The notes below the pieces were generated by a model. That model was given only the letters and a program-made list of their open reading frames with translations. It did not search any database and was not told where the DNA came from. Of a DNA stretch of 46,215 nt, positions 10,396-35,791 are shown in pieces; position 1 is the first letter of the stretch; each line of letters opens with the position of its first letter. The DNA is from Candidatus Latescibacterota bacterium. GTDB lineage: Bacteria; Latescibacterota; UBA2968; GCA-2709665. The position numbers were made by a program, and so were the translations under genes. The stretch lies in contig JAAXHW010000066.1 of the NCBI GenBank assembly GCA_012270675.1, forward strand, positions 1-46,215, in the 5' to 3' direction.

Positions 10396-10497
10396 TAAAA
10401 ATGCGCGTGGGGCATTGGAAAGCGGAAGCCTGAGCCTCACCTAATGAGACCCCTTCATGCCTACAATGCGTTAATTATCATCCATTCACTCGCCCAT

Positions 10498-10538
10498 GAA
10501 TCCCCCCCTTTCCCAAAGGGGGGGCCAGGGGGGGATTC
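10498..10538 (+). repeat. GC-rich palindromic repeat, copy B, supplies the RBS of the DUF559 gene
   Basis: A near-perfect palindrome: GAATCCCCCCC at one end matches GGGGGGGATTC at the other, with CCCTTTCCCAAAGGG inside. Its last G-run lies just before the ATG of the DUF559 gene and can serve as its ribosome binding site, so repeat and gene are physically coupled. Confidence 0.7.
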
Positions 10539-10540
10539 CC

Positions 10541-10912
10541 ATGCGCTACTACAACCACAACCTCAAGCGCAACTCAAGACGCTTGCGTTCAACGATGACC
10601 ATCAGTGAAAGACGGCTGTGGACACGGGTTCGCAGAAAACAGATCCTGGACGTGCAATTTTACAGACAGAAACCACTTGGAAACTATATCGTCGACTTTT
10701 ACGCTCCCAGAGCCGGGCTCGTCATCGAAGTGGACGGCGCACACCATCTGGAGGCAGAACAGGCGGCAAAAGACACACTACGGGATGCCTATATGAAGGC
10801 ACAGGGATTACTGGTGCTCCGCTTCTCCAACCACCAAGTGCTGCAACAAATAGATCGTGTGGTGGAAACAATCTATCAGACGGCATCCCAAAGACTGGGG
10901 GATTTCCAATGA
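10541..10912 (+). CDS. DUF559 (Vsr-like) endonuclease domain protein
   Basis: Small protein of 123 residues in the PD-(D/E)XK-type DUF559 family, structurally related to Vsr mismatch endonuclease. Visible motifs are the N-terminal RRLRSTMTISERRLWTRVR, FYRQKPLGNYIVDFYAP, LVIEVDGAHH (the catalytic E/D strand) and VLRFSNHQVL. Cellular roles are not settled; the genes spread widely, often singly. The ATG at 10541 was preferred to 10496 because the extra 15 residues would be encoded by the palindromic repeat. It is a plus-strand gene between minus-strand operons, and its stop is two bases from the end of the NtrC-type gene. Its repeat-embedded position suggests mobility. Confidence 0.85.
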   Translation: MRYYNHNLKRNSRRLRSTMTISERRLWTRVRRKQILDVQFYRQKPLGNYIVDFYAPRAGLVIEVDGAHHLEAEQAAKDTLRDAYMKAQGLLVLRFSNHQVLQQIDRVVETIYQTASQRLGDFQ

Positions 10913-22206: not shown

Positions 22207-25200
22207 CTACCGAAGGAGCAGCACACGCATCGTATGGGTGGTTTGACCTGTCTCGATACGGATCAGGTAGACCCCCGAGCCTGCCGGCCGTCCCGCATCG
22301 TCCCTTCCATCCCAGACCACTTGGTGGCGCCCGGGCGGGAACGCTTCCCGGACGAGTTGGCGCACAGGCTGGCCCAGGATGCTGAAAACCGTCAGCCGGA
22401 TTTCCCCGCCGTCCGTCCGGAACCCGACCCTCGTGTTCCGGTTGAAGGGATTTGGGGTTGGAAGCTCGAATGGAGAGGATGTATCTGCATCTGCGGATAT
22501 GAGGGTGTCGGCCCCGGCCGGGTGTGCTTCCGATGTATCCGCCTCTGTGGGGACGACCGCCTCCACCGTTCCTGGGGAAAAGCGGCGGTTCGACACGGCC
22601 GTATGGGCGACCCATTGCCCCTCCCGGCGCGGGTCCGGCACCAGCGACGCCCCCACCTTCCCCCCACTGTAACCGGTATCGATCAGGGTATCGGGCCCCG
22701 CAGGCGCGATCAGGAGGATGCGGTCCGACCCCGCCAGCCCGTTCCCAATCCGGCCCCCGGCCGAAAACCGTCCCGCATCGATATCCGTGGTGCCTCCGCC
22801 GAACAGCGTGAACAGGCCTTGAGGCCGGATCACCGACCCCACCGGAAATCGGAACGGCGCGCCGTCGTCGTCGCCAAGCGACCAGCCCGACAGATCCATC
22901 GGATGCCCCCCGGCATTGAACAGTTCAACAAACTGATCCTTCAACGCGTCCACCACCCCGTCCCCATCCACGTCCTGGGGTGGATCGACCAGGACCTCCG
23001 TCACCTGTAAGTGCGGGTGGGGCAGCACAAATACCCGGTAGGCCACCACCTGTTCCTCAAAACTGTTTCCACTGACCGACACCGCCACAATCCGTTCCCC
23101 TTCGTCTTCCGGGCGTGGCCGCCAGACCAATACCCTGCCCGAGCGCGCCAGCACAGGTCCCCCCTCCACCTGGACTTCGAAATCCCCCTTCAAAACGAAC
23201 GGCCAGCGCCAGGTCAGTCCCACAAAGGCCAGACTGTCCGGCGCCCCCCCCAGCAGACCCTCCGGCTCCAGTACCCGGATGCGAAAGCGCTGCTCCGACC
23301 GGTCTTGTCCGTCCCCGGCCTCCACAACAACTTCCGGGTTTCCCACATCTCCCGGCAGTGGCGTCCCCTCCAGGGTCTCCCCGTCCAGCGCCAGCCAATC
23401 GGGCCGCACCGGCGCATGCAGGGAGACCGGGTCGCCATCCGGGTCTTCGGCCCTCGGTCGATACCGGTACCTCAGACCCACGACAGCGATCGTATCGGGT
23501 AAAGAGAGGATCTCCGGCGGTCGGTTCGGTCCGTGCCCGGCAGAATCCCGGGCTGAGACGCCTGTGGAGTCTGTGACCGCAAGTGAATCGGCCTCCTCCC
23601 GAGTCGGACCGACTGCCACCCGGGCAAGGGCCGCTATGTGCTCTCCCCAGTACGCTGTCAGCCCCGTACTCCCCCCGGCCACCCCCCTTACAGTGCCCGT
23701 CGAATCCACCTTTGCCACCGCGGAATCCTCCACGGTCCACCGCACCCACGCTGTCAGGTCGACTTCGGTCGAGTCGCTGAATCCGCCGAAGGCCTGGAAG
23801 GTCCCCTCTGTGCCGGGCGTCAGGCGCAGGCTATCCGGCAGCAACCGGAGGCCCGTAAGCTCCGGCCTCGGATATCCCGGTGAGAACGCTCCCTTTCCGG
23901 GTAGCCGATCGTGTTCCACCAGCGTCCCATCCCTCCCCCGAACCCATGAGATGCCCGGCCGGCCCTTCCCAAAGCCCACCACCTGCAGCGTATCCACGCC
24001 ATCTGCAGAGACCAGCACCACCCGGTCTCCGGCGTTGGAAAGCCCGTCCCCGATTCGCCCATCGTCCACAACCACGCCTCCTGCAACCCCCTGCGGACTT
24101 CCACCGCCAAAGAGGGTTACATACCCTCCCACCGGCAGGAGGCTGTTTTCCGGAAACTGGAAGAGCCGGTCCGGCCCCACATCGTCATCTCCCAGCCGCC
24201 ACCCGCTCAAATCGGCCGGCTCCGTCCCGGAATTCCAGAGTTCGACGAACTCATCCTCAAACCCGTGGCGCACCCCGTCCCCATTGGCGTCCCCTGCCGC
24301 ACCGGAAGGTGGATTGGCCAGAATCTCATTGATCACCACCCCTTCCGGCCGACGTCCGGGTGGGCGTTTTGTCGGGCTTGCAGCCGTTTCGCGGGGGCGG
24401 CCCGGCGAAAAAAGGCCTATCCCGGGAGGCTCCGCGTGTCCGACCCAGCGCGTGCTGTCCCGCACCAGAGACTGGTTCAGGTCCCCTTCCACCCTGTATT
24501 CGGCCTTTGCCACCGTATCCTCAAAGGCCGGATCAATCAGCAGCACCACATCCCCCGAATTCGTCAACCCATTCCCAATACTCCCATCGTCAACAAACAC
24601 AAGCCCCGCAACCCCCAGCGGCTCCCCACCCCCAAACAGCACCGCACGCTCAAGAGATTCCAGCACCGTACCCTCCGGAAAACGAAACCGCCGGACTTCC
24701 GAAACATCGTCATCGCTCAATGTCCACCCGCCGATATTCACCGCTTCCGCTCCCAGGTTGAGCACCTCCACGAACTCGTCCGCCTTGCTGTCCCGCAGGC
24801 CATCGCCGTTGGCGTCTCCCTCCGGTCCGGAGGGGGGGTCTGCCAGGATCTCATCGATAACGACCCGGGGCCGTGCCTCTACCGACAGGGTGAAGGTCTG
24901 CACGGCCTCTGCTCCGTGGGGGTCGGATGCGATGAGGGAGAACAGAAAGTCGCCTGTCCGGGTCGGCGTCCACAGGAAGGCTCCGGTTGATGCGTCCAGC
25001 CTGACCCCCTCTGCCTCAGCCTCTATCCGGACCTGTCCCCCGTCCAGATTGCGGACCTGCGGGGCGTAGCGGCAGGCCTTCCCCACCCGTGCCCGGAGGG
25101 GTGGGACGCCCACGATCCGGGGTGGACGGTTGAGCACCTTGATTTCAAAGGCTGTCTCCAGCCGCACCCGTCCGTCGGTTACCGCCACCACCACCCTGGC

Positions 25201-27540
25201 CTCTCCCACGTCCGCGTCTGCCGGTCTCCCGCGCACGCTCCCGGTACGGTGTACCGACAGCCAGGCCGGGCCGGATACCTTCCGGAAGCTCAGCGTGTCC
25301 TCATCCGGGTCTGAGGCGGCCAGATGCATCTGAAACACCGAATCCTCCAGGGCCGTCTGCGGGGACACCGGCGTTACCACAGGCGCCTGATTTGGTCGAT
25401 CGATCACCACGATCTCCTGTTTTGCCACAGCCGTATACCACGTCCCGGAAATCTCGGCACGACCGACAGATACCCCGGTCAACGCTCCATTCTCTCCCAC
25501 CTTCAGGTGGGCCGAATCCACATGCCAGCTCACCTCTTCCGTCACCTCCCGGTGGGTGCTGTTGCTGTAGTACGCAATCGCCTTCACAACGCCCCTTGCG
25601 CCTACGTGCAGGGAATTGGGCGCGTTCAACGCCAGCCGCTCCAGCAGCGGACGGGGAAGCCCTGGAGAAAAGCGCCCGCTTCCGGGAAAGGCATCGTGCG
25701 GCACGTATGCTCCGGATGCCTGCCGGGCAAGGGACACATTCACGTCCCCTTCCACTTGATAGTCGACATAGGCCACCGTATCCTCAAAGGCCGGATCAAT
25801 CAGCAGCACCACATCCCCCGAATTCGTCAACCCATTCCCAATACTCCCATCGTCAACAAACACAAGCCCCGCAACCCCCAGCGGCTCCCCACCTCCAAAC
25901 AGCACCGCGCGCTTCAGAGACCCCAGCACCGTACCCTCCGGAAAACGAAACCGCCGGACTTCCGAAACATCGTCATCGCTCAATGTCCACCCGCCGATAT
26001 TCACCGCTTCCGCTCCCAGGTTGAGCACCTCCACGAACTCATCCGCCTTGCTGTCCCGCAGGCCATCGCCGTTGGCGTCACCCTCCGGTCCGGAGGGAGG
26101 GTCTGCCAGGATCTCATCGATAACGACCCGGGGCCGTGCCTCTACCGACAGGGTGAAGGTCTGCACGGCCTCTGCTCCGTGGGGGTCGGATGCGATGAGG
26201 GAGAACACCACCTCTCCCGCCCGGGTCGGCGTCCACAGGAAGGCTCCGGTCGCAGCATTCAGCCTGACCCCCTCTGCCTCAGCCTCTATCCGGACCTGTC
26301 CCCCGTCCAGATTGCGGACCTGCGGGGCGTAGCGGCAGGTCTTCCCCACCCGTGCCCGGAGAGGTGGGACGCCCACGATCTCAGGCGCCCTGTTCAGAAC
26401 CTCGATCCGGACGGTGCCTTCCGTTTCAGCTTCGCCGTCTGAGACACGAATCCGCACTTCGTGCACCCCCACATCGGCATCCGCAGGCGTGCCGGTCAGG
26501 CGGTCTGCGTCGGCATCCAACCCCACCCATCCGGGCGCCGACGCGAGGCTGAAGGTCAATACGTCCCCATCGGAGTCCGAAGCCGGAATCGGCCATATGA
26601 AACCGGAGTCTTCAATAGCAAAAACAGTCTCCGGCAGAAGGAGTTCCGGAGATCGGTTCGGACGGAACATCACCTCAATCTTCCCTGCCCTGGCAACGAT
26701 CGGCAGGGCCACGCCTTCAGCATCCGGCAGCAACGCACGGGCGATCCGGAGCGGGACCTCACCAACGGCTGCACGATCGAAAATCCGCAACCGCACGTGG
26801 AGCACGGCACCCGCACCGGCCGGCAGCAGGGAGGTCCCCGACAGGTCGGTCAGCAAGACCGTAGCCTGCCCCGCCTGCCGGGATCTCCCGTAGGCGGTGA
26901 GATCGCCTCCCCGCCCCCCGGACGCGGCGTCAACAAACGCAAGCACCTCTCCGTCCCATGCCAGCTCCACCTGAAGCCCGGCGGCCGGCTCGGAGTTCTC
27001 CAGCACCAGCGCAACAGCCACCGTATCTCCCGGCAACCCCATGGCCTGTTCCATACGCGCTACAAAACCGGTCACCTTGACCTCTCCGTCGATCCGGATC
27101 GGCTCAATCCTCCCGGGGGGATGGGCGTCGTCGCCCAGGTCGGCCTGGATCAGGCGCAGGGGGTAGACCCCGATCCTTGCCTCACTGTCGATCAGGAAAC
27201 GCATCCGGGCGATGGTCCCCTCTCCCGGAGGCACGGCGCTGCCCAGCGCAGGGTCGAGCATCAACACGCGCAGAGAATCGTCCGCTGTATGGGAATACGC
27301 CTCCATCGTCTCCGTCCGTTCCGCGGGTTCCACCTCCAGAGGCGTCATCGTCCCCTTCTCAAAGCCCACGGTCCACGCTGCTCCCGAAATCGGGCTCAGA
27401 TTCTTCAACACAACCTCCGCCATCAGGGTATCTCCTGCGCCCGCCACACCGCCCCGCACCCACAGGGTATCGGTCTGCGCAGGGACTTCACCCGTCCCCA
27501 ACACCAACCCCATCGCGACCAGACCGAGCCCCCGTCGCAT
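22207..27540 (-). CDS. Giant secreted protein with cohesin-like, putative-Ig and four lamin-tail domains and a C-terminal sorting domain
   Basis: 1777 residues with signal peptide (GLVAMGLVLGTGEVPAQ). Two N-terminal modules (about 22-150 and 155-290) look like cohesin domains. Putative Ig/cadherin-like repeats follow (ATGAFLWTPTR, DADVGVHEVRIRVSDGEAE), and Big_2-like stretches lie at about 650-700 and 1230-1290. Four lamin-tail domains sit near 470-590, 890-1008, 1067-1187 and 1513-1627, each opening with VVIDEILADPPSG-type sequence then DGxxD, EFVE and GGWTLSDDD. The C-terminal ~90 residues (PNPFNRNTRVGF ... GRDDAGRPAGSGVYLIRIE) are the FlgD-Ig/type A sorting domain of type IX secretion cargo. 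Residues 387-590 and 808-1011 are almost identical, reflecting a recent DNA duplication. One base separates it from the upstream dockerin-containing gene, so both are likely driven by the sigma54 promoter at 29783. Probable role: surface scaffold or adhesion; inferred. Confidence 0.85.
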   Translation of the reverse strand: MRRGLGLVAMGLVLGTGEVPAQTDTLWVRGGVAGAGDTLMAEVVLKNLSPISGAAWTVGFEKGTMTPLEVEPAERTETMEAYSHTADDSLRVLMLDPALGSAVPPGEGTIARMRFLIDSEARIGVYPLRLIQADLGDDAHPPGRIEPIRIDGEVKVTGFVARMEQAMGLPGDTVAVALVLENSEPAAGLQVELAWDGEVLAFVDAASGGRGGDLTAYGRSRQAGQATVLLTDLSGTSLLPAGAGAVLHVRLRIFDRAAVGEVPLRIARALLPDAEGVALPIVARAGKIEVMFRPNRSPELLLPETVFAIEDSGFIWPIPASDSDGDVLTFSLASAPGWVGLDADADRLTGTPADADVGVHEVRIRVSDGEAETEGTVRIEVLNRAPEIVGVPPLRARVGKTCRYAPQVRNLDGGQVRIEAEAEGVRLNAATGAFLWTPTRAGEVVFSLIASDPHGAEAVQTFTLSVEARPRVVIDEILADPPSGPEGDANGDGLRDSKADEFVEVLNLGAEAVNIGGWTLSDDDVSEVRRFRFPEGTVLGSLKRAVLFGGGEPLGVAGLVFVDDGSIGNGLTNSGDVVLLIDPAFEDTVAYVDYQVEGDVNVSLARQASGAYVPHDAFPGSGRFSPGLPRPLLERLALNAPNSLHVGARGVVKAIAYYSNSTHREVTEEVSWHVDSAHLKVGENGALTGVSVGRAEISGTWYTAVAKQEIVVIDRPNQAPVVTPVSPQTALEDSVFQMHLAASDPDEDTLSFRKVSGPAWLSVHRTGSVRGRPADADVGEARVVVAVTDGRVRLETAFEIKVLNRPPRIVGVPPLRARVGKACRYAPQVRNLDGGQVRIEAEAEGVRLDASTGAFLWTPTRTGDFLFSLIASDPHGAEAVQTFTLSVEARPRVVIDEILADPPSGPEGDANGDGLRDSKADEFVEVLNLGAEAVNIGGWTLSDDDVSEVRRFRFPEGTVLESLERAVLFGGGEPLGVAGLVFVDDGSIGNGLTNSGDVVLLIDPAFEDTVAKAEYRVEGDLNQSLVRDSTRWVGHAEPPGIGLFSPGRPRETAASPTKRPPGRRPEGVVINEILANPPSGAAGDANGDGVRHGFEDEFVELWNSGTEPADLSGWRLGDDDVGPDRLFQFPENSLLPVGGYVTLFGGGSPQGVAGGVVVDDGRIGDGLSNAGDRVVLVSADGVDTLQVVGFGKGRPGISWVRGRDGTLVEHDRLPGKGAFSPGYPRPELTGLRLLPDSLRLTPGTEGTFQAFGGFSDSTEVDLTAWVRWTVEDSAVAKVDSTGTVRGVAGGSTGLTAYWGEHIAALARVAVGPTREEADSLAVTDSTGVSARDSAGHGPNRPPEILSLPDTIAVVGLRYRYRPRAEDPDGDPVSLHAPVRPDWLALDGETLEGTPLPGDVGNPEVVVEAGDGQDRSEQRFRIRVLEPEGLLGGAPDSLAFVGLTWRWPFVLKGDFEVQVEGGPVLARSGRVLVWRPRPEDEGERIVAVSVSGNSFEEQVVAYRVFVLPHPHLQVTEVLVDPPQDVDGDGVVDALKDQFVELFNAGGHPMDLSGWSLGDDDGAPFRFPVGSVIRPQGLFTLFGGGTTDIDAGRFSAGGRIGNGLAGSDRILLIAPAGPDTLIDTGYSGGKVGASLVPDPRREGQWVAHTAVSNRRFSPGTVEAVVPTEADTSEAHPAGADTLISADADTSSPFELPTPNPFNRNTRVGFRTDGGEIRLTVFSILGQPVRQLVREAFPPGRHQVVWDGRDDAGRPAGSGVYLIRIETGQTTHTMRVLLLR
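24508..25118 (-). repeat. Internal direct repeat, copy 2 (residues ~808-1011 of the giant protein)
   Basis: Near-identical to 25771-26381 at a constant 1263-bp offset (421 codons), spanning an Ig-like region and a whole lamin-tail domain. Scattered differences include those near 24650 and 24945. Confidence 0.9.
25771..26381 (-). repeat. Internal direct repeat, copy 1 (residues ~387-590 of the giant protein)
   Basis: Partner of 24508-25118. Identity persists at third codon positions, so the duplication is recent or homogenised by gene conversion. Frame and domain boundaries are kept. Confidence 0.9.
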
Positions 27541-27541
27541 C

Positions 27542-29743
27542 TTACCGCAACAGGACCATCTTCACCACGGCCCGGTAGGTGTCCGCTTCCAGACAGACGA
27601 GATAGACCCCGCTGGCGACCCGTCGGCCACGCCGGTCCCGGCCGTCCCAGTATACCCGGTGGGTGCCTGCGCGCACCGATCCGTCCACCAGCCGGGCTAC
27701 CTCCTGGCCGAGGCAGGAAAAGATCCGAAGCGCCACCCGGCTCTCCTGCGGCAGGTCGTAGGCGATCACCGTGGCGCTGTTGAACGGGTTGGGATGGTTC
27801 TGGCTCAGGGCATAGGCCGTGGGCAGGGCCGGGGCCTGTTGAAACCTCACCCGGGCGCCCCGGAGGTCGACGCCCTGTATACTCACCACACCCACAGGGT
27901 CCCCCACCTGCTCCCCATCGGACAGGGACAGGCAGATCTGCCCATCCCGACCCCGCACGCCCTGCTCGGACAGGGTATAGATCAGGGCTTTCAGCGTCCC
28001 GTGCGGCGTACGCCGTGCGGTCAACACGGCCTCACCCCCCTCTTGTAAGCGCACCTCCTCGACCGGCCCCTCTACCTCTAAGGAGATCGCCCGCAGCGCC
28101 ACCGGGACCTCCACGCTGAGGACTGTGCCACCCGCTTCCATCCGCCATGTGGCGATCCCCGGCGGCACTGCCTTTGCGCCTGCGATGGGCTTCCCCAGAA
28201 TCCACCCGATGAGTTTGGCCAGGTCGAAGATATCGATCTCGCCGTCCCCGTTCAGGTCTGCCGCGCGCCGTTCAAAAAGGGTCGCCGACGCGTCTAAAAT
28301 CAGGTGAACCGAATGGAGGGCGTCCAGCAGATCACGCGTCCCATCAGCGTTCAGGTCTCCCACCTCGGCAGCCCGCAGTAACGCCTCCCCCAGCAGCGCC
28401 TCCAGGCCTGCCCACACCACCGTCGAGCCCGGCCCCAGGGCCAGCACCCCGTTTCCACCCACCGGGCGGGCCACCGAGGAATCCGACACCGTCCAGGCCA
28501 GCCCCCCGTCGATGCGTTCCCGGCTGCTGTCGGAGTAGACCCCTTCCACAGCGTAGACAACCGAGTCTCCAACCAGCACCAGCGTCTCAGAAGGTGCAAG
28601 CACCAGGCCGGCAAGCCCGGGGGCGACCACCTCTACCCGGGCCTCCGGTGAACGCAGCTCGCCGGCAAGCGCGGTGACGCCGACCTCTCCCAGCCCCCTG
28701 GCCTCTGCGTGCCCGCCTTCCAGCGCGAGAACCGTCGTGTCGGACACCTCCCAGCTCACCTCGTCCTCCAGTGTCCGCACCTCCCCATCCCCAAAGATCC
28801 CCCTGACGTCAAAGGTGAACGTCTCTCCCAGCGCCACCGATGTGTCCGAAGGCAGGATTTCGATGCCGGAGAGCATAATTCTGGGTGTCCCTGGAGAGAA
28901 AAGTGCCCCATTCGCCGGGAATAATTTGTGCAGGACAAACTCGCCCCGCCCCTCCGGATGACGCACCAGGGACTGGTCCTTACCCCCCTCCGGTCCGTAT
29001 GTAGCCCGGGCCAGCGTATCGGACTGATCGATCAGATAGACGGCATCTCCGGAATTGCTCAACCCGCTCCCGAGCTTGCCATCATCCGTAAAAACCTGTC
29101 CCTCGATTCCCACGGGCGTTCCCCCGCCAAACAGCACCACCCGCTCCCCCGGCCCGATCCGGGTCTCCGGCGGGAAGGTGAACCGCCTGTCGGGAGCCGT
29201 CCCTTTGTCGCTGAGCTGCCATCCGCTCAGTTCCACGGACCGCAGTCCGATGTTCAGCAACTCCACAAACTCGTCCTGGCTGCTGTGCCGGATACTGTCC
29301 CCATTCGCGTTCCCGGCCTCCCCGGAAGGCGGGTCTGCCAGGATCTCATTGATCACCACCACCTCGAAGGCCCCCTCGCCGTCCAGGTCCACCCCCACGG
29401 AGCCACCGTTCGTCCCCACCTCCAGGCGTCTGGCAAACCGTCCGGTATCGGGTGGGGCGAACCGGACCGGGAGGTCCAGCACACCGGCCGGGCCCAGGAG
29501 AATCGAATCCCCGGAGAAGGGCGCTGTGGGCAGTGTGTACACAGAGTCGGGCAGCGTGGCGGACGCCACCAGGAGGTCCACGGCTCCGGTGTTGCGTATG
29601 CGCACCGTATCCACCGCCTCGGTGCCCACACGCACCGGCCCGAACACAAGCGTGTCCGGCTCGGCGGTCCCATCCGCCCCGGCCCCGGCCTGTAGAACCT
29701 GTAGCGCTGCCCAAATACCCATTGTGGCAACCTTTCCCTTCAC
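27542..29743 (-). CDS. Secreted protein with lamin-tail domain, dockerin and C-terminal sorting domain
   Basis: 733 residues. A likely signal peptide (KGKVATMGIWAALQVLQAGA) is followed by an ASPM/choice-of-anchor-like beta domain (about 28-128; LVFGPVRVGTEAVDTVRI, LPVRFAPPDTGRF). A lamin-tail domain (about 129-245) opens with VVINEILADPPSG. Two bacterial Ig-like segments (about 290-450) come next. A type I dockerin at about 460-517 has two calcium loops, DLNADGTRDLLDA and DLNGDGEIDIFDL. A cohesin-like beta stretch follows, and a FlgD/type A sorting domain (NHPNPFNSATVIAYDL ... DGRDRRGRRVASGVYLV) ends the protein. The dockerin could dock onto the cohesin-like modules of the next gene. The GTG at 29743 keeps the basic N-region of the signal peptide; ATG 29722 is the alternative. 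A perfect sigma54 promoter lies 40 bp upstream. Confidence 0.87.
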   Translation of the reverse strand: MKGKVATMGIWAALQVLQAGAGADGTAEPDTLVFGPVRVGTEAVDTVRIRNTGAVDLLVASATLPDSVYTLPTAPFSGDSILLGPAGVLDLPVRFAPPDTGRFARRLEVGTNGGSVGVDLDGEGAFEVVVINEILADPPSGEAGNANGDSIRHSSQDEFVELLNIGLRSVELSGWQLSDKGTAPDRRFTFPPETRIGPGERVVLFGGGTPVGIEGQVFTDDGKLGSGLSNSGDAVYLIDQSDTLARATYGPEGGKDQSLVRHPEGRGEFVLHKLFPANGALFSPGTPRIMLSGIEILPSDTSVALGETFTFDVRGIFGDGEVRTLEDEVSWEVSDTTVLALEGGHAEARGLGEVGVTALAGELRSPEARVEVVAPGLAGLVLAPSETLVLVGDSVVYAVEGVYSDSSRERIDGGLAWTVSDSSVARPVGGNGVLALGPGSTVVWAGLEALLGEALLRAAEVGDLNADGTRDLLDALHSVHLILDASATLFERRAADLNGDGEIDIFDLAKLIGWILGKPIAGAKAVPPGIATWRMEAGGTVLSVEVPVALRAISLEVEGPVEEVRLQEGGEAVLTARRTPHGTLKALIYTLSEQGVRGRDGQICLSLSDGEQVGDPVGVVSIQGVDLRGARVRFQQAPALPTAYALSQNHPNPFNSATVIAYDLPQESRVALRIFSCLGQEVARLVDGSVRAGTHRVYWDGRDRRGRRVASGVYLVCLEADTYRAVVKMVLLR

Positions 29744-29938: not shown

Positions 29939-29973
29939 AAAAAAAGGCGCTGACCACTTTCTGGTCAGCGCCT
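29939..29973 (-). terminator. Intrinsic terminator, second of a tandem pair
   Basis: On the minus strand a 12-bp perfect stem AGGCGCTGACCA (29945-29956 with 29962-29973) and five-base loop are followed by seven T residues. It backs up the terminator at 29988-30018. Confidence 0.85.
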
Positions 29974-29987
29974 GTCCGGGCATCCAC

Positions 29988-30018
29988 AAAAAAACCGCTG
30001 CAGTCACACCTGCAGCGG
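29988..30018 (-). terminator. Intrinsic terminator, first of a tandem pair
   Basis: A 9-bp stem CCGCTGCAG/CTGCAGCGG with a six-base loop (29995-30018), followed on the minus strand by seven T residues, 30 bp after the stop of the 85-aa gene. Confidence 0.85.
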
Positions 30019-30047
30019 CCCGGACGCTTCTGTGGCGTTCTCCCGAC

Positions 30048-33443: not shown

Positions 33444-33662
33444 ATGCTCTATACGCTCCTCATCGTCGGTGCGCTCCTCATCGTCCTGGTGTCCAGGGTT
33501 CTCTTCCGATCGGTCGAAACGTGTCCAGAGTGCGGCCAAAAGCGGGAGGGTGACGGTCCGATATGCCCCTGTGGATGGGTCTTTGAGTATCCCGAAGACG
33601 ACGCGCCCCTGGAATATGGAGACCCCGACGACGATGTTACAAAAAAAGGGACAAACGGATGA
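33444..33662 (+). CDS. Small membrane-anchored zinc-ribbon protein, 72 aa
   Basis: One N-terminal transmembrane helix (MLYTLLIVGALLIVLVSRVL) is followed by a compact zinc ribbon, ETCPECGQ and GPICPCGW, giving four cysteines in two knuckles, then a very acidic tail (YPEDDAPLEYGDPDDDV). With no positive N-region ahead of the helix and an acidic C-terminus, the topology is not certain. Its stop overlaps the lyase start by ATGA, so the two proteins are probably made together. The ribosome site is poor. Function unknown; a partner or regulator of the lyase is a guess from coupling alone. Confidence 0.7.
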   Translation: MLYTLLIVGALLIVLVSRVLFRSVETCPECGQKREGDGPICPCGWVFEYPEDDAPLEYGDPDDDVTKKGTNG

Positions 33663-35791
33663 ACTGGACAGCGGAAGCGGTTCGTGCCGAACTGGACGTC
33701 CTGGAGCCCATTTTGAGGGAATTGGGGCTCAAAACGCCCTTTCAGAGGGCCAGGTTTCTGATCGATCGGGAAAAGGACTGGACCTCGGATGAGGTGCAGA
33801 TGCGCTGGCAGGAGCGGGTCGGGTACTGGCGGGACCTCCTGCCTGGAAGTGAACGGAACTGGGACACCCTCCTCGACCTGGATGCCCCCGGCCTTCGGCC
33901 GCTGAAAACCCGCTTCGAAGCGGGTGGAAAAGCCGCTCAGGATGCCTGGGCGTCATATATTGCCAAACAGGACCGCCTGGCACCCCACCTCCACAATACC
34001 GATTTCCGAATACTCCTGTTTGAAACGGACGACTGGGAGCTGTACGATCAGGATGGTGCCTATCAATCTGAACGCGCTGAAATGCTGCTTCAGGGGCAAA
34101 TCAGACTCCTGGCCCTGGAACCCGTTTGGAGGCACCCGGATTCGGATTACGACTGGTTGATTCAGCATCCCCGGGACAGGGTCTTCCAGAACGCCCACCA
34201 GAGCGCCTATTTCTTTATGTATCCTGCCCTGGCCTATTTTCACCGGCCCGATCCCAAATGGGCCCGGGCATGGGCAGGGATGGTCCTTGCGCTCATTGCC
34301 CAGTGCCCGCGCCTGCCGGAAGGCCACAACGACTTTGGGCCGGGCGACATCTGCGACACCCCCTCCAACGTGGCCTGGTCGCATTACGGTTATGTTGCCA
34401 ATCGGCTGAAATTCCTCGTGCTGGGCTACCTTGCGATGGCAGACAGCCCCGGGTTCTCCCCTCGCTTCCATGGGATCATCCTGAGGACCATTCGGGCGCA
34501 CGCCCGGCGTCTCCACGAATTGGATCGAGCCGCCTACAAAGACAACCTCCTCAGTGCAACCGGCAAAGCACTTTACCTGACGGTATCCCTGCTCCCCGAA
34601 CTCAAAGAGCGCGACGCCTGGCTGCACCGCCTGTGGCCCCACCTGCTTGAGGGCATGCAGCGGGAGTTGCTTGACGACGGCTGCCACCTCCACCGGTCGA
34701 TCTCCTACCACCTGACCTTCGTCAGACGCCCCCTGTCCATGATCTACCTGGCCCGGCAACGGGCGGATGAACTGCCCGACCGATTCCTCTCCCTGGTCCG
34801 GCGCGCCGTAAATGCCTTCGTCCAGGTCTCCACCCCGATCCGTTCCACGCCCGGAATCAACGACGACTGGACGGTCGCAGTCGAGGCTCGCGGTCTCCTG
34901 AGTCTTGCAGCGGACGCCTTTCAACGCGACGACTGGCGCTACCTGGCCACAGACGGACGGGAAGGCACCCAACCGCACACGCGCTCGTCCCTGCTGCCAG
35001 ACGCCCGGCTTGTGGCCATGCGCTCCGGCTGGTCCAGGAACGCCCGCTACCTCCTCTTCAACGTCAGCCCGGATGGGGGCCACCACCATCCGGACACCCT
35101 CTCCATCCAGATCTGGGCAGGCGGCGAGCACGTCCTCATCGACCCCGGCGTGGGCCATTACTACACCGGCGAGCGGGAGATCTCCAGGCAAAGCTGGTGG
35201 CACAACTGCCCCACCCTCGGCGCAGAGCCCCTGCCGAACGATCCGAACCCGGAAATCCTGCACTGGCAGACCGAACAGGACCTGGACTACGCGATCGGAC
35301 AGATTCAGATCCCGATTGAGGGGGGTGTCCCCCCGATCACCGTACGCCGACACGTATTTTTCCTTGACCGGCGCTGCTGGGTCATCTGGGACGAATTTGA
35401 GGACCTGCCTCAAAACCGCCGGATCTGGGAAAACTTCCACTTCACCACGGAGGATGTCAGCATCTCCCGGGACGGTGGGGCCGTACACACCAGCCTGCCC
35501 GACAGGACCAATCTCTCCGTATGCCTTGGACAAAAAGACTGGCACCTCTCGTCTGAGAAGGCGCAAAAATGGCTGTCCTACGGCGGACCGGGCATACCCA
35601 CCCGGCTTTTGCACTATCAGGCGGATCCGAAAACGGCCTCACGCGGCTTTGCCGCCCTGTTCGTGCCCTTTGAAGGGAAAACACCCCCCGAGAACACCTC
35701 GATCGACCGCATCGAGCGGTTGCCCGACAACCGCGTGCGGCTGCACGTCACGGTCGAGGGGCACCCCCGACAGATCACCACGGTCGGATAG
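33659..35791 (+). CDS. Heparinase II/III-like polysaccharide lyase family protein
   Basis: 710 residues. The N-terminal half is an all-helical (alpha/alpha) toroid: DWLIQHPRDRVFQNAHQSAY, GDICDTPSNVAWSHYGYVAN, DDGCHLHRSISYHLTFVRRP. The C-terminal half is the beta-sandwich heparinase II/III domain with the conserved GGHHHPDTLSIQIWAGGEHV, LIDPGVGHYYTGEREI and RRHVFFLDRRCWVIWDEF. Family members cleave uronate-containing glycans such as heparin, heparan sulfate or alginate by beta-elimination. No signal peptide is seen, which is unusual for a lyase that meets polymer outside the cell and may mean a cytoplasmic oligosaccharide lyase. The start overlaps the zinc-ribbon gene. Confidence 0.85.
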   Translation: MNWTAEAVRAELDVLEPILRELGLKTPFQRARFLIDREKDWTSDEVQMRWQERVGYWRDLLPGSERNWDTLLDLDAPGLRPLKTRFEAGGKAAQDAWASYIAKQDRLAPHLHNTDFRILLFETDDWELYDQDGAYQSERAEMLLQGQIRLLALEPVWRHPDSDYDWLIQHPRDRVFQNAHQSAYFFMYPALAYFHRPDPKWARAWAGMVLALIAQCPRLPEGHNDFGPGDICDTPSNVAWSHYGYVANRLKFLVLGYLAMADSPGFSPRFHGIILRTIRAHARRLHELDRAAYKDNLLSATGKALYLTVSLLPELKERDAWLHRLWPHLLEGMQRELLDDGCHLHRSISYHLTFVRRPLSMIYLARQRADELPDRFLSLVRRAVNAFVQVSTPIRSTPGINDDWTVAVEARGLLSLAADAFQRDDWRYLATDGREGTQPHTRSSLLPDARLVAMRSGWSRNARYLLFNVSPDGGHHHPDTLSIQIWAGGEHVLIDPGVGHYYTGEREISRQSWWHNCPTLGAEPLPNDPNPEILHWQTEQDLDYAIGQIQIPIEGGVPPITVRRHVFFLDRRCWVIWDEFEDLPQNRRIWENFHFTTEDVSISRDGGAVHTSLPDRTNLSVCLGQKDWHLSSEKAQKWLSYGGPGIPTRLLHYQADPKTASRGFAALFVPFEGKTPPENTSIDRIERLPDNRVRLHVTVEGHPRQITTVG

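Follow-up and report, generated by a model that had tools for sequence, protein, structure and literature searches.

Two adjacent genes of a Candidatus Latescibacterota bacterium encode a pair of proteins with lamin-tail domains (LTDs), one bearing a dockerin and the other two cohesins, and in related genomes the same order of LTDs is found on a single chain from which both kinds of module are missing. We give a probability of roughly 55% to the reading that the pair is one LTD surface protein made in two docked halves, with the dockerin on one half and the cohesins on the other. The case is built from domain profiles, predicted folds, gene order and an LTD tree, and is weighed below against three other explanations of the same modules.

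Domain Organization of the Gene Pair

The features of the pair are given in Table 1 by their position in the window, which is the whole stretch of 46,215 nucleotides that was analysed. Gene A runs in the order signal peptide, Ig-like domain, one LTD, two-loop dockerin, degenerate module and type IX secretion (T9SS)-type tail, while gene B opens with two cohesins, continues through four LTDs and Ig repeats, and likewise ends in a T9SS-type tail.

Table 1. Features of the gene pair and its surroundings, by window position
Feature	Residues (aa)	Position	Strand	Basis or remark
Gene B, 1777-aa cohesin/LTD protein		22207..27540	-	ATG start; ORF list, Pfam
T9SS type A sorting tail, gene B	1689-1777	22210..22476	-	TIGR04183
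LTD 4 of gene B	1509-1662	22555..23016	-	Orthologous to LTD5 of fused chains
Big_2 domain of gene B	1232-1296	23653..23847	-	Pfam
LTD 3 of gene B	1066-1227	23860..24345	-	Pfam
LTD 2 of gene B	891-1052	24385..24870	-	Pfam
LTD 1 of gene B	470-632	25645..26133	-	Pfam
He_PIG Ig-like repeat, gene B, best of five stretches	304-380	26401..26631	-	Pfam
Cohesin 2, gene B	169-273	26722..27036	-	PF00963, 25.6 bits; local HMM, 6e-24 (cohesin 2 is itself among its seed sequences)
Cohesin 1, gene B	34-156	27073..27441	-	PF00963; AF2 and Foldseek
Probable signal peptide, gene B	1-21	27478..27540	-	Read from sequence (MRRGLGLVAMGLVLGTGEVPAQ)
A/B junction TAA-G-ATG (stop of A, one base, start of B)		27538..27544	-	Sequence
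Gene A, 733-aa dockerin/LTD protein		27542..29743	-	GTG start, GGAGAG immediately 5'; ORF list, Pfam, orthologues
T9SS type A sorting tail, gene A	643-733	27545..27817	-	FlgD_ig; TIGR04183 borderline
Module X, gene A, ~110 aa	528-636	27836..28162	-	Between dockerin and tail
Two-loop dockerin, gene A, DLNADGTRDLLD ... DLNGDGEIDIFD	461-517	28193..28363	-	PF00404
Two Big_2-like domains, gene A	291-458	28370..28873	-	Weak Pfam match, E 0.04
LTD of gene A	127-290	28874..29365	-	Pfam; orthologous to LTD1 of fused chains
HYDIN/choice-of-anchor-D-like Ig domain, gene A	29-113	29405..29659	-	Profile match below cut-off
Probable signal peptide, gene A	1-24	29672..29743	-	Read from sequence (MKGKVATMGIWAALQVLQAGAGADG)
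Two strong terminator-like hairpins 5' of gene A		29945..30021	-	12-pair stems, then T runs

The LTD family (PF00932, cut-off 34.3) scores 64.7 bits in the small protein and 196 bits in the large one, and the cohesin family (PF00963, cut-off 24.1) matches two stretches of the large protein at 44.2 bits. Dockerin_1 (PF00404, cut-off 22.9) reaches 27.6 bits in the small protein in the Pfam scan and 32.5 bits in another search, with two calcium-loop repeats of the pattern DxNxDGxxxxxD. When a profile running from the dockerin to the tail was compared with the PDB, the best matches included dockerins, several of them from cohesin-dockerin complexes (2y3n, 4dh2, 4fl4); the best dockerin match cited is 2y3n_B (E 1e-8). 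An AF2 model of residues 22-300 of gene B consists of two beta-sandwich domains (mean pLDDT 70), to which the closest structure found by Foldseek is the cohesin dyad 3l8q (E 8.6e-8). The single cohesins 5nrm and 3ul4, both solved together with their own dockerins, match the model with a TM of 0.68-0.69 on the target at 2.5 Å. Pfam and TIGR profile searches detected neither a glycoside hydrolase nor a carbohydrate-binding module in the two proteins, and the pair thus lacks both the dockerin-borne glycoside hydrolases and the CBM-bearing scaffoldin of a cellulosome.

These results confirm what the original prediction had observed and support part of its interpretation; it was made from the letters of the window and its open reading frames. 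It had described neighbouring cohesin-like and dockerin genes (now seen as ORFs with Pfam matches above cut-offs), a two-loop type I dockerin in the 733-aa protein, two cohesin-like modules at the start of the 1777-aa protein, five LTDs without glycoside hydrolases (Pfam finds four in the large protein and one in the small), and a non-cellulosomal make-up. The structure prediction that it had put forward as a check returned cohesin folds for the N-terminal modules of the large protein. It had also placed type A sorting domains at the end of both proteins. This holds for the large protein, in which FlgD_ig lies above the curated Pfam cut-off and TIGR04183 (cut-off 23) scores 25.4 bits by hmmscan and 31.2 bits in the genome search; the small protein matches FlgD_ig (31.5 bits) but is borderline for TIGR04183 (18.3 by hmmscan; 22.8, or 23.2 with neighbours, in the genome search).

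No clear ribosome site for gene B was seen at the A/B junction, and a spacing of 1 nt without such a site suggests translational coupling of the two genes. The terminator-like hairpins upstream of gene A suggest a separate transcript for the pair. Elsewhere in the window, near the pair, lies a heparinase II/III-like gene (33659-35791, + strand) in which no dockerin or sorting tail was found, and a stand-alone small protein of the DUF559/restriction-endonuclease fold is encoded at 10496-10912 (+ strand).

Paired and Fused Forms among Relatives

All 21 available genomes of the order were searched for the locus (G000 is the genome of the window). A dockerin gene upstream of a cohesin gene is found in three genera (G000, G019 and G016), in each case with a stop-G-ATG junction (an identical TAAGATG in G019, TAGGATG in G016), and dockerin and cohesins are retained together in 3/3 pairs. 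Gene A has orthologues in G019 (46% over residues 27-733) and in G016, where the second Big_2-like domain is missing. Identity among the orthologues of the pair is 57%-65% in the LTD, 47%-57% in the dockerin, 34%-47% in the tail and 23%-32% in module X, and the calcium-loop residues of the dockerin are conserved. The cohesins, at 19%-35% identity, have diverged faster than the dockerin.

At the syntenic locus of 13 of the 21 genomes there is one gene, whose LTD chain is collinear with the pair and has no dockerin or cohesin. Five LTDs are present wherever the frame is complete; the chain of G011 is split over two frames and the ORF of G014 has three LTDs. The fused gene lies at the same locus as the pair, with spoIIE and aldehyde dehydrogenase downstream at 66%-79% identity, in G001, G003 and G004, and in fragments in G005. 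Its first part in the G001 group resembles the small protein up to the first Big_2, and the remainder resembles the large protein from the LTDs on. A single LTD chain adjoining a glyoxalase-like gene is found in G006, G008-G014 and G017, and the same glyoxalase-like gene also flanks the locus in G016, G007 and G001-G005. Genomes with a fused chain still have cohesins elsewhere. The large gene of G007 (L200:4909-7869), with one cohesin left, the signal peptide and small gene lost and the flanking gene in place, is probably a decayed remnant.

Positional orthology was read from clade support in a tree of 80 LTDs. Among the LTDs of the fused chains, LTD1 groups with the LTD of gene A (100/98), LTD5 with the last LTD of gene B (100/99) and LTD4 with the third of gene B (92/83); the first two of gene B fall near LTD2 and LTD3. 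The fusion breakpoint is inside the first Big_2 in G001 and G003 and after it in the G006 group, and this difference between the two fused groups indicates that fusion happened at least twice, separately. An ancestral pair followed by two separate fusions would require the fewest events. A single-chain ancestor with two later splits is less likely, because each split must add a dockerin, two cohesins, a tail, a signal peptide and the same 1-nt junction. Unrooted LTD quartets fit the family grouping (G000 with G001-G005 versus G007, G016 and G019), and with these quartets there is no need to invoke a recent horizontal transfer that brought the pair into G000. When the LTD clades are rooted, the pair-type copies instead come together, which we put down to long branches.

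Components of the Probable Export Route

The genome of the window is a MAG of 318 contigs, 94% complete and 7% contaminated. SprA is present (640 bits), as are 11 PorV-family genes above the cut-off at 11 loci and 16 T9SS sorting tails (TIGR04183 search); a PorU-like protein of 1951 aa gives 238 and 61 bits in two matches, against a curated cut-off of 420. On the strength of SprA, the PorV family, the PorU-like protein and the sorting tails, a T9SS-like outer-membrane step is likely to exist in this host. For the GldL/GldM motor, TIGR03513 and TIGR03517 found no match in the genome; these models are Bacteroidota-trained, and diverged homologues could escape them. The type IX-like export originally predicted, to be checked by a genome search for PorU, PorV and SprA, is therefore upheld by SprA, the PorV family and the tails, with a PorU-like match below the cut-off, but is weakened by the unmatched motor. 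For a T9SS shuttle protein, a set of eleven PorV-family genes is unusually large.

Other Dockerins and Cohesins of the Genome

A search for further dockerin proteins, also proposed at the outset, found about 15 more dockerin-like modules in the genome (L105-L119). They form one class, with ADFDGDGxVDFxDFVxFAxxFG occurring twice, and lie at the N- or C-terminus of secreted proteins that are unrelated to one another (metalloproteases, propellers, LRR, vWA/VIT and heparinase-like proteins). The genome in all has 16 dockerin matches, carried by secreted proteins such as proteases, propellers and LRR proteins, and only 3 cohesin loci; the other dockerin-like modules have hardly any cohesin available to them.

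From these numbers one might take the large protein for a small scaffoldin that serves the many dockerin-like proteins of the genome, the small LTD protein being one client. The dockerin of gene A, however, is of a class clearly different from the others, with their DFxxFAxxFG, and the cohesins are missing wherever the two genes are fused, though those genomes keep cohesins at other loci. We think a general scaffoldin very unlikely.

Proposed Assembly of the Pair

If the pair is a protein in two docked halves, both halves would be made together from one coupled operon and exported by the T9SS-like route via their sorting tails. The tail of the small protein would be used for export and then removed, as happens with known T9SS cargo. 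Close to its C-terminus the small protein has the dockerin, which would bind one or other of the cohesins at the N-terminus of the large protein; the small half would thereby be held at the membrane-distal end of the large half, and the C-terminal tail of the large protein would be the anchor, as in the fused chains, in which the small-protein part would be distal. Docking would restore, without a covalent bond, the order in which the LTDs follow one another on the single chain of sister genera. Two cohesins per large chain could accept one or two small chains, and since no dockerin is present in the large protein and no recognisable cohesin in the small one, the complex would be closed, at 1:1 or 2:1. 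The same domain anatomy rules out an open polymer, so the self-assembling structure of the original prediction does not stand if it was meant as open-ended. We infer the binding, its stoichiometry, the export, the location and the LTD ligands from the sequences.

The pairing is independently supported by how well the dockerin is conserved compared with module X, by the distinct class to which that dockerin belongs, and by the conserved, apparently coupled operon. The joint loss of dockerin and cohesins from the fused chains is circumstantial, supportive but not decisive, because any in-frame deletion between the LTDs removes both. Against a split protein stand the small number of known pairs (three), the faster divergence of the cohesins, the borderline tail of the small protein and the unmatched GldL/GldM, and also the fact that dockerins of relatives often adjoin a cohesin in the same chain. 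We hold more tentatively, at somewhat short of even odds, that the cohesin-dockerin contact is an exchangeable joint, such that the LTD array occurs either docked or, through at least two fusions deleting the modules, covalent.

The viability of fused forms without dockerin and cohesins would also fit a purely structural role, in which the dockerin is a calcium-binding spacer segment and the cohesins are Ig-like beta-sandwich spacers, in the unlinked products of a tandem LTD duplication. Both proteins are indeed largely Ig-like modules and paralogous LTDs, and the cohesin sequences are poorly conserved. Yet conservation covers the calcium-loop residues and also the entire dockerin, and dockerin and cohesins lie on partner chains of one operon in three genera, which would be unexpected of spacers; on balance such a role seems distinctly improbable.

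Comparison with Known Systems

Cohesin-dockerin pairs are known mainly as links between enzymes and scaffolds, and for most non-cellulosomal modules we know of no partner. Here the operon supplies a candidate partner for the dockerin, and the fused orthologues offer a natural control for the role of the link. The GH84C system of Clostridium perfringens is a non-cellulosomal hetero-assembly of two secreted proteins through one cohesin-dockerin contact, as is proposed here. Its proteins are glycoside hydrolases of a Gram-positive, with no LTD and no T9SS, and we know of no fused orthologue for it. With the clostridial cellulosome the pair shares the type I cohesin and dockerin folds and the two-loop dockerin; unlike the cellulosome it has no cellulose-binding module, no glycoside hydrolase and two cohesins only, and the putative anchor is a T9SS tail rather than SLH or sortase.

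The original statement that no system of such design had been described was too strong. Ca. Stygibacter (Cloacimonadota) has a T9SS-tail-anchored cohesin scaffoldin and dockerin enzymes, inferred from MAGs (PMC8542988). Both cases combine a cohesin protein having a T9SS C-terminal domain with dockerin proteins in a non-Bacteroidota lineage. The Ca. Stygibacter scaffoldin is a 3,755-aa protein with tandem cohesins and CBM2/3 whose clients are enzymes (PMC8542988), whereas the pair described here consists of two LTD proteins from adjacent genes, with no enzymes and with fused orthologues. With T9SS-anchored cohesins and dockerins already known, the LTD pair is a variant within a known category, not a new category.

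Noncellulosomal cohesin and dockerin modules have been widely described, for example in ANME archaea (PMC9012536) and in a survey (Peer et al. 2009, as cited in PMC9012536). These modules, like ours, occur outside cellulosomes on variable proteins. Most such accounts survey scattered modules, unlike the present partners, which are neighbours, kept as a pair and replaced by a covalent fusion in relatives. ExeM is a secreted nuclease with one LTD, and bacterial proteins with several LTDs in tandem are known (PMC6085458); unlike ExeM with its single domain, the pair here carries an array of five, divided between two proteins. Links to membranes or to DNA have been reported for LTDs of bacteria, whose role is unsettled (PMC6085458, PMC4486849). 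In the open-access literature we found neither an LTD pair nor a docked pair that had given way to fusion. If the two-halves reading is true, the locus would provide a small and testable cohesin-dockerin system of two components that is not cellulosomal, from an uncultured lineage that has T9SS-like export, and would mean that docking and covalent fusion are interchangeable in evolution.

Module X and the Dockerin-Cohesin-Tail Cassette

Module X was absent from the original account of the small protein. In relatives, a cassette made of a dockerin, a cohesin 33-37 residues on and a sorting tail ~22 residues further recurs in many proteins. This layout is also that of the small protein, where X stands at the cohesin's position and has the right length. 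Among the fetched loci, 21 of 112 distinct cohesin matches lie 22-55 aa after a dockerin (mostly 33-37) and ~22 aa before a sorting tail. Compared with cohesins by hhalign, the modules at this position in zixibacterial relatives match at 89%, those modules with the window's X added at 74%, and the window orthologues alone at 0.5%. Given the cohesin-like module at the same position in the zixibacterial relatives, X may represent the cassette's cohesin in degenerate form; as a plain cohesin it is not supported by the profile of the window orthologues. X is beta-rich in the AF2 model, with low to moderate pLDDT, and weakly matches the cohesin-FnIII structure 2w1n, a structure linked to the GH84C cohesin of C. 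perfringens that was also among the matches of the gene B cohesin model.

The shared layout and the 21 cohesin matches that show it raise the possibility that the dockerin acts in cis, with dockerin, X and tail forming one compact C-terminal unit or swapping from one copy of the small protein to another, and with the cohesins of the large protein binding others. One would then hardly expect X to be the least conserved part of the C-terminal half of the small protein next to a conserved dockerin, nor its orthologues to fall outside the cohesin profile, and the AF2 model is of low overall confidence (pTM 0.47). We therefore consider a cis role unlikely, and retain docking between the two proteins as the preferred reading.

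The cassette itself, with its near-fixed spacings, closes many long secreted proteins of the lineage (L103, L108, L227, L229, L231-L238, L246, L251, L252, L254, L255 and L258). It is more widespread than the gene pair of the window, and may be a compact structural unit. Runs of adjacent cohesin- or dockerin-bearing genes at L032, L034 and L062, from named Zixibacteria and unclassified MAGs, show that such neighbours exist beyond this order as well.
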